Assembly (NCBI RefSeq): GCF_000455365.1 | Contig: NZ_HG315685.1 | Location: forward strand, 873,600-937,599 | Source of the DNA: Halopiger djelfimassiliensis | Lineage (GTDB): Archaea; Halobacteriota; Halobacteria; Halobacteriales; Natrialbaceae | Length of the DNA: 64,000 bases | Direction: 5' to 3' | Part shown: positions 52,773-63,203 of the stretch, in pieces | Position numbering within the stretch: the first letter of the stretch is position 1 | Layout: every line of letters begins with the position of its first letter | Made by a program: the position numbers and the translations under genes | Notes under the pieces: generated by a model | Databases searched by the model: none | Told to the model about the DNA's origin: nothing | What the model saw: only the letters and a program-made list of their open reading frames with translations

Positions 52773-52897
52773 CGTCGACCTTGAACCGACGCCGGCACGG
52801 CAACTCCGATTCAGGGGCCTCACGCGGATACCGGTGTGAACGCCTCGGTAGCGATCGAGTAGGGACGGTTAAGTATCCGCGGCCCTCTTGTCGAGGT

Positions 52898-53392
52898 ATG
52901 AGTCTGGGACAGCGCGTCTCGAGCGACAACCAGCTCACCCGATTGCTCCAGATCGGGGTCGTGCTGGAGGAAGTCGTCGAGTCACGCGCCGCCCACCACC
53001 TCGAATCGCTCCCCCCGGAAGAGCGGGCGGAGTTCGACGAGGAGGTGCGGGAGTTGCTCGTCGACGCCAGCGAGGAGTCGGCCGATCACCGCGAGCGACT
53101 CGAGGCGCTGATCGACGATCTCGAAGCCGAGACGGTGGAGTACGAGGAGATCAATATGTTGGTCGACGCCCAGTACAGACCGCCGGAGGATACGGACGGC
53201 GTCTTGTACGATCAACTGGCCAACGAAGAGACGGCCTACAAGTTCTACGACGACCTGATCGAGGCGATCGAGGCCTCCGATTCCGAGTTCGCCGTCGACC
53301 GCGGACGGCTGCTCGATACCCTGTATACGATCCGCGAGGAGGAAAAGGAGGGCGTCGAAGAAGTCACCGAGATCATGGAGCACAGAGCATGA
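52898..53392 (+). CDS. Ferritin-like protein
   Basis: This 164-residue, mostly helical protein has Glu-rich and His-containing helices (EVVESRAAHHLESL, ASEESADHRERLEAL, NEETAYKFYDDLIEAI) as in rubrerythrin/ferritin-like four-helix bundles that bind di-iron. I cannot place every metal ligand, so iron storage or oxidase activity is inferred. The stop overlaps the next small ORF and the DtxR gene follows, which supports a role in metal homeostasis. A GGTTAAGTATCC element lies about 25 bases upstream of the ATG. Confidence 0.65.
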   Translation: MSLGQRVSSDNQLTRLLQIGVVLEEVVESRAAHHLESLPPEERAEFDEEVRELLVDASEESADHRERLEALIDDLEAETVEYEEINMLVDAQYRPPEDTDGVLYDQLANEETAYKFYDDLIEAIEASDSEFAVDRGRLLDTLYTIREEEKEGVEEVTEIMEHRA

Positions 53393-53535
53393 TCGGGGCC
53401 GAGATCGTGTCCACGCTCACCTCGGGCACGACAGCCGACCGACCGCCAGCTACCGCACGGATCGATTCCACGGATCAGATCCGCCGCCGAGGACTCGACG
53501 TCACACACAGCCGCACCGATGGAGGGATCCAATGA
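53389..53535 (+). CDS. Possible 48-residue ORF coupled to both neighbours
   Basis: An ATG overlaps the stop of the ferritin-like gene (ATGA), and the frame ends in a TGA that overlaps the DtxR start (again ATGA). A GGAG lies about 8 bases upstream of its start. The product begins MIGAEIVSTLTSGTT and has no motif. Double overlap is suggestive, but high-GC frames stay open easily, so this could be chance. Confidence 0.35.
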   Translation: MIGAEIVSTLTSGTTADRPPATARIDSTDQIRRRGLDVTHSRTDGGIQ

Positions 53536-53966
53536 ATACTGCAGACCAATATCTGAAGGCGATCTATCTCGCCCAGCGAATGGAGGACGGTCCCGCATCG
53601 ACCGGGACGCTCGCGGATCTCCTCGAGGTCAGTCCGGCGAGCGTCAACGAGATGATCGGTAAACTCGAGGAACAGGAACTCGTCGAGCACGAGAAGTACA
53701 AGGGCGCAACCCTGACCGAGGAGGGTCTCGAACGTGCCCACGACGCGCTCCAGACGTACTGTATCATCGAGCGGTTCCTCGCGAACGTCCTCGAGGTCGA
53801 GGAGTTCCGTGGCGAGGCTCGTGCACTCGAAAGCGTCATCGACGATACCGTCGCGGAACGGCTCGATACGATCATCGACCGGCCGGAGCAGTGCCCCGAC
53901 TGTTTCGACCCCGAGCAGGACTGTTGTAAACTGCTCGAACTCGAGGCCAGCGGGCAGGCGGACTGA
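53532..53966 (+). CDS. sirR: DtxR/SirR-family metal-dependent regulator
   Basis: This 144-residue regulator has an N-terminal winged helix (MNTADQYLKAIYLAQRM, LADLLEVSPASVNEMIGKLEEQELVEH) and a dimerisation region with a Cys-rich end (CPDCFDPEQDCCKLLELE). The family binds Fe2+ or Mn2+ and then represses metal-uptake or related genes. A GGAGG lies about 7 bases upstream of the ATG. It is in a probable operon with the ferritin-like gene. The T run TTTTT at about 53970-53974 may end the transcript. A typical DtxR/MntR palindrome is present elsewhere in the window (61673). Confidence 0.9.
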   Translation: MNTADQYLKAIYLAQRMEDGPASTGTLADLLEVSPASVNEMIGKLEEQELVEHEKYKGATLTEEGLERAHDALQTYCIIERFLANVLEVEEFRGEARALESVIDDTVAERLDTIIDRPEQCPDCFDPEQDCCKLLELEASGQAD

Positions 53967-58231: not shown

Positions 58232-58669
58232 ATGAACCGGCGCGTCTATCTCGCCGCCGTCGGAACTTCCGTGTCGGCGGGGCTGGCGGGGTGTACGTCC
58301 ACACTCGGCGTCTTCGATTCCGAGCCCTGTAACGACGATGCGTGTCACATCGGGATGACCCGCACCGATTTCGTCCCCGAAGAGTACGAGGCGACCGTCG
58401 GCGAGACCGTCGTCTGGAAGAACACAAGCGAGGCCATCCACACCGTCACGGCGCTCGAGACGGGTATCCCCGACGAAGCGGAGTACTTCGCCACCGGCGG
58501 GTACGGGGACGAAAAAACCGCCCGCGAGGGCTGGCACGAGGACCACGGTGGCGGGCTCGAGACTCGAGAGACGTTCGAGTACACGTTCGAGGTGCCCGGC
58601 ACCTACGACTACATCTGCATTCCTCACGTCGGTGCCGACATGGTCGGACGCGTCGTTGTCTCTGAGTGA
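58232..58669 (+). CDS. Halocyanin-like blue-copper lipoprotein
   Basis: This 145-residue protein has a signal ending in the lipobox LAGC (Cys21) and a plastocyanin-like cupredoxin domain. Copper ligands are visible: His in EAIHTVTALE, and Cys, His and probably Met in YICIPHVGADMVGRVVV. It carries electrons at the membrane's outer face. Its C-terminal part is clearly related to the cupredoxin domain at 61692-63203, including a GIP(D/A) insertion after the first His. Confidence 0.9.
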   Translation: MNRRVYLAAVGTSVSAGLAGCTSTLGVFDSEPCNDDACHIGMTRTDFVPEEYEATVGETVVWKNTSEAIHTVTALETGIPDEAEYFATGGYGDEKTAREGWHEDHGGGLETRETFEYTFEVPGTYDYICIPHVGADMVGRVVVSE

Positions 58670-59420: not shown

Positions 59421-59453
59421 GCTTTTCACTACCGGATGTTACCACCTAGTTGT
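59421..59453 (+). promoter_or_regulatory. thi4 promoter with element shared with the gene at 63275
   Basis: TTTTCAC at about 59423-59429 lies about 27 bases upstream of the thi4 ATG and can serve as the TATA element. TACCACCTAGT at 59440-59450, then TGTATG, is nearly identical to the sequence upstream of 63275. The shared block is about 33 bases long. Confidence 0.55.
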
Positions 59454-60383
59454 ATGACCGAATTCGACCAGTTCAGTCAGGTCGGCGAAGCCGACGTAAC
59501 GCGTGCGATCGGACAGGAGTGGACCGAGGAGTTCATGGACTTCTCGGACTCGGACGTCATCATCGTCGGCGGTGGGCCGTCCGGGCTGACGGCCGCGAAG
59601 GAGCTCTCCGAGCGCGGCGTCAAGACGATGGTCGTCGAGAAGAACAACTACCTCGGCGGCGGGTTCTGGCTCGGCGGCTTCCTGATGAACAAGGTTACGG
59701 TCCGTGACCCCGCCCAGAAGGTCCTCGACGAACTCGAGGTGTCCTACAAGGAGTCCGAGGACAGCGAGGACCTCTACGTTGCCAACGGACCGGAGGCCTG
59801 TTCCGGGCTGATCAAGGCCGCCTGTGACGCCGGCGCGAAGATGCAGAACATGACCGAGTTCACGGACATCGTCATCCGCGAGGATCACAAAGTCTCGGGG
59901 ATCGTGATGAACTGGACGCCGGTCCACGCGCTGCCCCGCGAGATCACCTGCGTCGATCCGATCGCGGTCGAGGCAGATCTAGTCATCGACGCGACCGGCC
60001 ACGACGCGATGGCCGTCAAGAAACTCGACGAGCGGGGCGTCCTCGACGCGCCCGGCATCGGCGACGCGGAGGCCAACGCCACTGGCATGGACCAGACCGG
60101 CGACGACTCTTACGGCGCACCCGGCCACGACTCGCCCGGCCACGACTCCATGTGGGTCGGCAAGAGCGAGGACGCCGTCGTCGAGCACACCGGCCTCGTC
60201 CACGACGGCCTGATCGCGACCGGCATGGCGACCGCGACGACCTACGGTCTCCCGCGGATGGGGCCGACCTTCGGTGCCATGCTTGTCTCGGGCAAACGCG
60301 CCGCCCAGGAAGCGCTCGACGAACTCGGCGTCGACGCCGACCCCGTCGAGTTGACCTCGCGGGCCGCACCGGCCGACGACTGA
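59454..60383 (+). CDS. thi4: Thiamine thiazole synthase Thi4
   Basis: This 309-residue enzyme makes the thiazole part of thiamine from NAD and glycine. It has the dinucleotide-binding motif [17 protein letters not shown] (residues 35-51). Cys166 in PREITCVDP occupies the position of the catalytic suicide cysteine of yeast Thi4 (Cys205) and the haloarchaeal enzyme, rather than the His of sulfide-using methanogen forms. A glycine-rich [10 protein letters not shown] segment precedes the C-terminal [12 protein letters not shown]. It is probably controlled by a thiamine-responsive regulator, but the site is not identified here. Confidence 0.95.
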
Positions 60384-60605: not shown

Positions 60606-61628
60606 ATGATGCCCGACGTGATCGCGGTCGACCGGATGCTCCCGTCGACGGGAGCGATCGGACACGCACTCGAGTCCTACGCCGCGGAGGCAGTCGGTCC
60701 GGATGCCGACCTCACCAGACTCCACCGCGTGTACTATCCGGTGTTCCGGGTAGAGTACCGGTACGAACAGGATAGCCGGATCCCGTGGGGAAACGACACG
60801 AGTCACGCCGTGACGTTGCTCGACGGCCTCTGGGCCGACAACCACGCCGCCCTCCAGCAGTACCGGTCGGGAACCGATGCGGTCGAATCGATATCGCTCG
60901 AGCCCTACGACTTCGGTCGAGACGGGCCGGGACTGGGGCGGACGGTGCTACTCGACTTTCAGGTTCCGACCCAGCGAGCGAGACGGCTGCTGCCGGAACG
61001 ACTCGCGGACGTCACCGAATCGCGACGCATCGACGACCCGGACTCGATTACGTCCTCGTTCGTCGAGGAACTGACCGAGACGTTCGGACTGCCGCCGGCG
61101 TTCGAACCGGAAGGGTTCGACGGCGTCGTCAACGTCTCCCGGCTCTATCTTCCCTTCTGGGTCTGTGAGGTAACCCGGTCCGACGAGCGCGATCTCATCG
61201 GTGCCGTCCGAGACATCGCGGACGTCGGTGACGGCGACTCGGGCCACGAGTGGCTGTCCGCGTTCTTCCGCGAGGACAGGAGCCGACTCGCGCGGTACGC
61301 ACACGCGTCGATTCGTCGCTCCGGAGCCGACGCCGGTGGGACCGACTCGAGCGAGCGACGCGGCTCGACTACGCACGAGGGCGACGCGGGGAGCGATCCG
61401 GAGACGCCACCCGAGCGCTCGACGGAGGGCGAAAATACCGAACGCGAACCGACCGACGCCGACCAGCCCCTCGACGCGACCGGCACGGGAGCGGAGCGGA
61501 CCGGGCCGGTTCAGCCCGAAGACGTCGACCTCGATGCCGGGTCGCTCGTGGAACCGAGTCCGAACCGGTGTTTCGCCGATGTCGGTGGCATGGAGAGGAT
61601 TTATTTTCACTATTCTACAATCGTATAA
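60606..61628 (+). pseudogene. N-terminal half of an AAA ATPase, cut off at the start of its ATPase domain
   Basis: The 340-residue frame is an ordinary protein up to NRCFADVGGMER, which is how an AAA (Cdc48/PAN-like) domain starts. It then changes to IYFHYSTIV and stops in AT-rich sequence. No Walker A, Walker B or later AAA part follows. The N-terminal region (AVDRMLPSTGAIGHALESY...) is typical of haloarchaeal AAA proteins of about 600-700 residues. The simplest reading is a 3' deletion. A 22-codon frame from 60541 overlaps the start. Whether the stub has a function is unknown. Confidence 0.75.
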
Positions 61629-61672
61629 ACGAATGTCCAAATAAGTGGAGGAACCGAAACGACTATCAATGA

Positions 61673-61688
61673 TTTAGGCAGACCTAAA
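61673..61688 (+). promoter_or_regulatory. DtxR/MntR-type palindromic operator
   Basis: TTTAGG-CAGA-CCTAAA is a perfect 6+4+6 dyad, ending three bases before the ATG of the DUF5059 gene. Its arms match the TTTAGG/CCTAAA half-sites of DtxR/MntR/SirR operators. Binding here would block the start of a leaderless transcript. A DtxR-family regulator is encoded at 53532. Confidence 0.65.
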
Positions 61689-61691
61689 ACC

Positions 61692-63203
61692 ATGCCAACG
61701 AGACGGACCGTACTGGCAGCGAGCGTCGTCGCGGCGACGACCGGTGTTGCGGGGTGTACCGATGGAACGGACGACGACTCGGACGAGGAAGCGGATGCCG
61801 ACGGGGAATCGAACGGCGACGGGGGATCGAACGTCGAGAGCCCAGCGATCGGCGTTGCGGCCGAGTGGAACGCGATACGGGCGCGCACCGCCGACGCGCT
61901 CGCACTCGGAGTCGCCGGTGAGTTCTCGACCGGCGGGGCGGTCGTCAGCGATACGCTGGCCCGGTTCGAGGGGGCAACTGCCGAGTGGGGTGCTCACGAA
62001 CAACTCGAGGAGACCGACCACGAGAGCTACGAGGAGTTCGAGGAGGCGCTCGAGGAACTCAAGCAGGAGGGTCTCGACGAATCCGACCTCGAGCGGATAC
62101 GGACGGAAGTCGGCCTCGCGGACGAACAGCTACAGTCGGTACAGCACGACCGACTGGGAGCGGAGAACGCGCTCGCGTTGGATATGGGCCAGTTCGCGGC
62201 GCGAATCAACGACGTCGCGACGCTTGCGGCCGCCGGGCAGTTCGCCGCGGCCGAAACCGTCGCCGAGGGGATCGACGAAGCGTGGGAGGACTCGAACGCA
62301 CACGACGCCGTCAGCGACGCCGATTCGGACCTGTACTCGACGTTCGAAGGTGCGGTAATCGGGCTGGCGTCGGCAGCGGCCGACGAGGACGCCGAGGCGG
62401 TACGGGACGAAGCCGAGACCGCGATTCCGGCCGCGATCGACGCCGCGTACGTCCTCGCGGAAGACGAGGCGGTCGCCGACGCGGCCGGAATCGCAACCAT
62501 GCAGGCCCGCGGCTGGGACGCCGCCGTGTTGACGACCTTCGATGTCGCGCCGGAAACGGCCGCGGATATCGCGCGAGGGGCCTACCAGTGGTTCGAAAGC
62601 GCCCGCGTCCACGAGTCGCTCGAGAGCGCCGATCACGCCACCTACGAGGCATTCGAGGACGAACTCGAGGCGTACATCGAGACGCTCGAGACCGAAGCGA
62701 CCGTCGACGAGGCGGCGGCCGACTTCGCGGCGGCCGCGCTCCGAGCACAGTTCGCCGTCGCCGGCGCGCTCGAGGACGCACCCGGCGAGGGCGACGGCGA
62801 CCACGGCCACGAGCACGGCGACGAGCACGCGGACCTCGAAGGCGGCCCGAACGTCGTTGAAGGCGTCCCCGACGACGTCGACCACGTCGTGAAGATGCAC
62901 GCGACGTCGTTCGAGCCCGAGAACCTGACCGTCGCGTCCGGCGACACGGTCGCGTTCGAACACGTCGGCGGTGAACCTCACACCGTCACCGCTTACGAGG
63001 ACGGAATCCCCGCCGACGCGGCCTACTGGGCGTCAGGTGATTTCGAAAGCGAACAGCGCGCCCGCGAGGGCTGGGAGAACGGCGTCGGCGCGGTCCGATC
63101 CGGCCAGTCGTACGTCCGCACGTTCGAGACGACCGGCGAACACGAATACGTCTGTCTGCCACACGAGACGGTCGAGATGACCGGAACGATCGTCGTCGAG
63201 TAA
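61692..63203 (+). CDS. DUF5059 lipoprotein with C-terminal cupredoxin domain
   Basis: This 503-residue protein has a signal ending in the lipobox VAGC (Cys22), an acidic linker, a DUF5059 helical domain (about 50-365) with repeated YxxFE-type segments, a His-rich stretch (GDHGHEHGDEHADLE) and a halocyanin-like cupredoxin domain (about 395-503). Copper ligands are His in GEPHTVTAYE and Cys, His and Met in YVCLPHETVEMTG. The His-rich stretch could bind metals. It may act in iron or copper uptake or electron transfer. A metal-type operator lies at its start. Confidence 0.9.
   Translation: MPTRRTVLAASVVAATTGVAGCTDGTDDDSDEEADADGESNGDGGSNVESPAIGVAAEWNAIRARTADALALGVAGEFSTGGAVVSDTLARFEGATAEWGAHEQLEETDHESYEEFEEALEELKQEGLDESDLERIRTEVGLADEQLQSVQHDRLGAENALALDMGQFAARINDVATLAAAGQFAAAETVAEGIDEAWEDSNAHDAVSDADSDLYSTFEGAVIGLASAAADEDAEAVRDEAETAIPAAIDAAYVLAEDEAVADAAGIATMQARGWDAAVLTTFDVAPETAADIARGAYQWFESARVHESLESADHATYEAFEDELEAYIETLETEATVDEAAADFAAAALRAQFAVAGALEDAPGEGDGDHGHEHGDEHADLEGGPNVVEGVPDDVDHVVKMHATSFEPENLTVASGDTVAFEHVGGEPHTVTAYEDGIPADAAYWASGDFESEQRAREGWENGVGAVRSGQSYVRTFETTGEHEYVCLPHETVEMTGTIVVE

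Follow-up and report, generated by a model that had tools for sequence, protein, structure and literature searches.

A predicted TroR-type iron operator at the promoter of a haloarchaeal DUF5059-cupredoxin gene

A short dyad immediately upstream of a DUF5059-cupredoxin gene in Halopiger djelfimassiliensis is, as judged from sequence comparisons, very probably an operator at which a DtxR-family iron repressor, with TroR the foremost candidate, would switch this gene according to iron supply. The dyad lies within the stretch of 64,000 nucleotides that was analysed here (the window), which also encodes the candidate repressor 7.7 kb upstream of the site. We propose that, when iron is plentiful, a TroR dimer bound to the dyad, downstream of the TATA element and ahead of the start codon, would block initiation. 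When iron is scarce, TroR would leave, and the encoded lipoprotein would be made along with the enzymes of siderophore synthesis and the ABC systems for siderophore/Fe(III) uptake. This type of switch is already known; the target gene is little studied.

The dyad, TTTAGGCAGACCTAAA at positions 61673-61688, is followed by ACC and then by the ATG of the DUF5059-cupredoxin gene at 61692. A previous sequence-only reading of this DNA had described an operator touching the start codon; its dyad sequence and coordinates are exact, but a gap of 3 nucleotides separates the site from the ATG. When up to two mismatches were allowed, this was the sole match to the dyad in the window, and it is a perfect one (shuffled sequences yield a mean of 0.17 matches). 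A first feature that marks DtxR/IdeR-type iron operators, the TTAGGNNNNCCTAA core, is present in the dyad. The target of IdeR/DtxR proteins has been redefined as this 14-bp sequence bound by one dimer, and the dyad arms are identical to that consensus (PMC8464063).

A putative BRE and a TATA-like element (Table 1) were placed upstream of the dyad by using general archaeal promoter geometry. Transcription probably starts at approximately the ATG of the DUF5059 gene, which would make this a leaderless promoter. Because the operator would then reside between the TATA-like element and the transcript start, a bound repressor would be well positioned to prevent initiation.

Table 1. Features of the window and dyad-associated features elsewhere in the genome. 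Positions without a prefix refer to the window; prefixes C1 to C4 denote contigs of the genome.
Feature	Position	Strand	Evidence or remark
Predicted DtxR/TroR-type operator TTTAGG-CAGA-CCTAAA	61673..61688	.	Sequence; genome copies; arms kept in orthologous promoters
Putative BRE (ACCGAAA) and TATA-like element (ACTATCAA)	61653..61669	+	Sequence; next-best conserved columns 5' of the dyad
DUF5059 and cupredoxin Tat-type lipoprotein gene (503 aa)	61692..63203	+	Pfam, alignment, repeats, models
troR, DtxR-family regulator (144 aa, without FeoA domain)	53532..53966	+	Pfam; orthologue of Haloferax HVO_0863
Small protein gene just 5' of troR	52895-53392		Weak Pfam matches only
Stand-alone cupredoxin (halocyanin-like) lipoprotein gene	58232-58669		No dyad
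thi4-type thiazole synthase gene	59436-60383		
ORF between the thi4-type and DUF5059 genes	60606-61628		No Pfam match
Peripla_BP_2 substrate-binding protein genes by exact dyads	C1:165740, C2:84537, C2:687697		
Peripla_BP_2 substrate-binding protein genes by one-mismatch dyads	C1:684644, C2:578530		
SBP_bac_6 protein gene by dyad	C1:777116		
ABC/TOBE ATPase gene by dyad	C3:875758		
Paired dyads	C4:210896/210932, C4:26556/26592, C4:104698/104732, C2:109829/109863		Spacing 34-36 bp
One-mismatch and two-mismatch dyads	C3:141642-141683		Between ferritin 3' end and macro-domain-like gene

A second feature of such operators is recurrence at the promoters of iron genes, and this was found in the same genome. 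A genome search for the dyad, which had been suggested as a check, returned 16 exact copies of the pattern in 3.78 Mb, compared with none for the reversed control. The excess extends to the family, wherein 101 genomes carry 815 dyads (37 for the control) and every genome carries at least one copy. Two dyads located 36 bp apart adjoin a siderophore operon encoding a class-III aminotransferase, a decarboxylase, an IucA/IucC-FhuF protein and an ornithine/lysine monooxygenase, and another dyad precedes a FecCD permease gene. Further copies reside by genes for substrate-binding proteins and an ABC/TOBE ATPase (Table 1). At many genomic sites, the start codon is only a few bases 3' of the dyad. Some dyads are found ahead of genes with no obvious link to iron, including those for a glycosyltransferase, a methyltransferase, a cupin and a PHP/DUF7551 protein. 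Genomes that carry DUF5059 have a median of 15 dyads and those that lack it have a median of 6 (Mann-Whitney p ~1e-7, with no correction for relatedness).

A ferritin gene on contig C3 was considered as a target and then dropped, as the nearby dyad is located past the 3' end of this gene. Paired dyads are frequent, and a T-rich, TATA-like stretch lies between the two members of one such pair in Haloferax.

Conservation at orthologous promoters is a third feature of DtxR/IdeR-type operators, and the DUF5059 genes exhibit it. DUF5059 is present in 18 of the 101 family genomes, and 21 distinct DUF5059 promoters were compared, including three from Haloferax as well as those from Halopiger goleimassiliensis and Haloarchaeobius iranensis. 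Each of these promoters, the Haloferax examples among them, carries the dyad 3-6 nucleotides 5' of the ATG. Ten of the 12 arm columns are invariant, and the remaining two each deviate in one sequence. Information content is 1.7-2.0 bits per column in the arms, 0.06-1.1 bits in the spacer, and up to ~1.2 bits in the flanks, where the best-kept columns form two blocks, one reading CGAAA and one rich in T, whose distances are those expected for a BRE and a TATA element.

Published expression data for the Haloferax volcanii orthologue, HVO_1228, bear on the direction of control. This gene is changed by +4.2 log2 alongside siderophore genes upon knock-down of endA (PMC7714728); in a cas1 fen1 mutant the change is -2.92 log2, and iucA, bdb and dat fall with it (PMC9051519). 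These findings are consistent with HVO_1228 and the siderophore genes residing in one regulon, with both datasets derived from unrelated mutants and not from iron limitation. They lend indirect support to the earlier proposal that the gene is repressed when the metal is plentiful. HVO_1228 is not mentioned in PMC11349517.

Because the dyad is very probably the docking site for an iron repressor, the DUF5059 protein is predicted to belong to the iron-starvation response. The identity given earlier to its gene is borne out by Pfam matches to DUF5059 (PF16502; 1e-77) and to the Copper-bind cupredoxin domain (3e-13). The N-terminus of the protein carries a twin-arginine signal with a lipobox (TRRTVLA...VAGC). 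The helical part of these proteins is built from ~104-amino-acid repeats, three in a short form and six in a long form, each carrying the motif FE...HE..LE...Y..FE. In the window protein, three repeats are followed by a C-terminal domain that has a cupredoxin fold with type-1 copper ligands (H-C-H-M) and matches plastocyanin/amicyanin. The helical part was modelled confidently (pLDDT 95.5), and every match that a structure search with the repeats returned was to a generic four-helix bundle (best E-value with Foldseek, 0.2). Imelysin and EfeO occur among the structural matches; imelysin 3n8u aligns with the helical part with a Z-score of 9.7 over 104 residues, and bundles of PilJ, PsbQ, talin and vinculin score equally or higher. 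A match to Dynein DHC_N2 (E 0.005, below the cut-off) was dismissed as coiled-coil noise.

In six related loci, DUF5059 has a thi4-type thiazole synthase gene as its neighbour. The window has an ORF between these two genes that the related loci lack, and a stand-alone cupredoxin gene lies 3 kb upstream (Table 1).

When iron is low, the DUF5059 protein might either assist iron acquisition at the cell surface or serve as an iron-sparing copper electron carrier. An acquisition role is not implied by the operator, because a carrier of the latter kind would explain the regulation equally well. We regard iron sparing, wherein the blue-copper domain would replace iron-containing electron carriers, as a credible but tentative assignment. 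It accords with the plastocyanin/amicyanin match and the copper ligands of the window protein, and with a published list in which the DUF5059 protein of Haloferax mediterranei figures as a halocyanin (PMC9240420). However, a simple carrier would not need the three to six helical repeats, which are conserved and carry His/Glu residues, and the copper site is not uniform, given that the alignment exhibits H or Q at the Met ligand position in several relatives.

Two proteins with both DtxR-family domains are encoded in the genome. The sequence-only reading had noted such a regulator in the window, and a DtxR-family protein is indeed encoded there, but it is a TroR orthologue and not the SirR-like protein that had been supposed. 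Its Pfam matches are restricted to PF01325, PF02742 and generic HTH families, and a SirR identity was rejected given the absence of a C-terminal FeoA/SH3 domain. Orthology was established by using the published primers for HVO_0863 (PMC6801745). The forward primer has exact matches in Haloferax genomes, where no match to the reverse primer turned up. The only DtxR ORF inside the HVO_0863 amplicon span is a clear orthologue of the window regulator, and the upstream neighbour is shared. Since HVO_0863 has been named TroR (PMC11349517), the window regulator is also assigned this name. TroR orthologues are present in 100 of 101 family genomes (one copy is partial), and the genome without a match is 70% complete. 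No dyad with two or fewer mismatches is located 5' of the troR gene in the window. The small protein gene just 5' of troR occupies the same place in Haloferax.

The second two-domain protein, encoded on contig C5, is SirR-like (HTH, dimerisation and FeoA domains). It is possible but unlikely that this protein is the main binder of the dyad, or that both proteins compete for the site. No other protein in the genome matches Fe_dep_repress, Fe_dep_repr_C and FeoA as strongly as the contig C5 protein, which also retains the His/Glu positions typical of metal binding, and these characteristics favour its involvement. In TroR, the positions that carry His in ScaR-like relatives read C, R and S, and, because the usual DtxR/MntR/ScaR His ligands are absent, the sequence gives no guide to its metal response. 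Four residues of TroR (Cys77, Cys121, Cys124 and Cys132) are invariant in 33 of 33 sequences. Sequence comparisons suggest that TroR orthologues might sense iron by means of cysteines. Against a SirR-like binder, TroR is reportedly the main iron regulator of Haloferax, and we retain TroR as the most likely ligand of the dyad.

The metal had previously been given as iron or manganese, and only the first of these finds backing. We assign iron because dyads precede genes for siderophores and for Fe(III) uptake, and none of the genes seen adjoining dyads in the genome encodes a manganese transporter. Although DtxR and MntR share a fold, and a phmmer search with the window regulator places ScaR and MntR structures ahead of DtxR, these gene associations and the match of the arms to the IdeR/DtxR consensus make a manganese (MntR-like) operator very improbable. 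The excess of dyads over the control in both the genome and the family, along with the conservation in 21 distinct orthologous promoters, refutes a chance palindrome and, with the consensus arms, upholds the earlier assignment of the site as a DtxR-type operator.

By sequence evidence, then, a domain of unknown function is placed in the haloarchaeal iron-starvation regulon, and the data point to a copper protein that is turned on by iron need. The likely regulator is moved from SirR to TroR, and the prediction is directly testable in Haloferax volcanii (HVO_1228, with HVO_0863 as troR).

The dyad can be compared with several known systems. The IdeR/DtxR half-site TTAGGNNNNCCTAA (PMC8464063) has the same arms and 4-bp spacer and controls iron uptake genes, whereas the site described here lies in an archaeal promoter and keeps a further T/A pair on the outer side of each arm. 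Compared with the 19-bp IdeR/DtxR box, the second overlapping dimer site is missing; some promoters instead have a separate dyad ~34-36 bp upstream, which the window promoter lacks. Another counterpart is the TroR regulon of Haloferax, a different genus, wherein the regulator is orthologous, the targets include iron uptake, and the DUF5059 genes carry the same dyad.

EfeO (cupredoxin plus imelysin M75) is likewise an exported, iron-regulated protein in which a cupredoxin domain is joined to helical bundles, but the domain order of DUF5059 proteins is reversed. No match to M75/imelysin (PF09375) was found in the window protein or in 20 genomes, nor to EfeU/FTR1 (PF03239) in 20 DUF5059 genomes, and the window protein reads GAHEQL in place of the EfeO motif GxHxxE. 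Membership of DUF5059 in the EfeO family was rejected on these grounds, and the resemblance may at best be a loose functional analogy, a weak lead drawn from composition. It is distinctly doubtful that DUF5059 is a haloarchaeal EfeO counterpart whose copper domain and His/Glu repeats handle iron under a TroR that senses iron by cysteines. Halocyanin and plastocyanin-amicyanin proteins share the C-terminal type-1 copper domain; DUF5059 proteins differ in having helical repeats ahead of it, three in the short form and six in the long form, and a promoter that is predicted to be controlled by iron.
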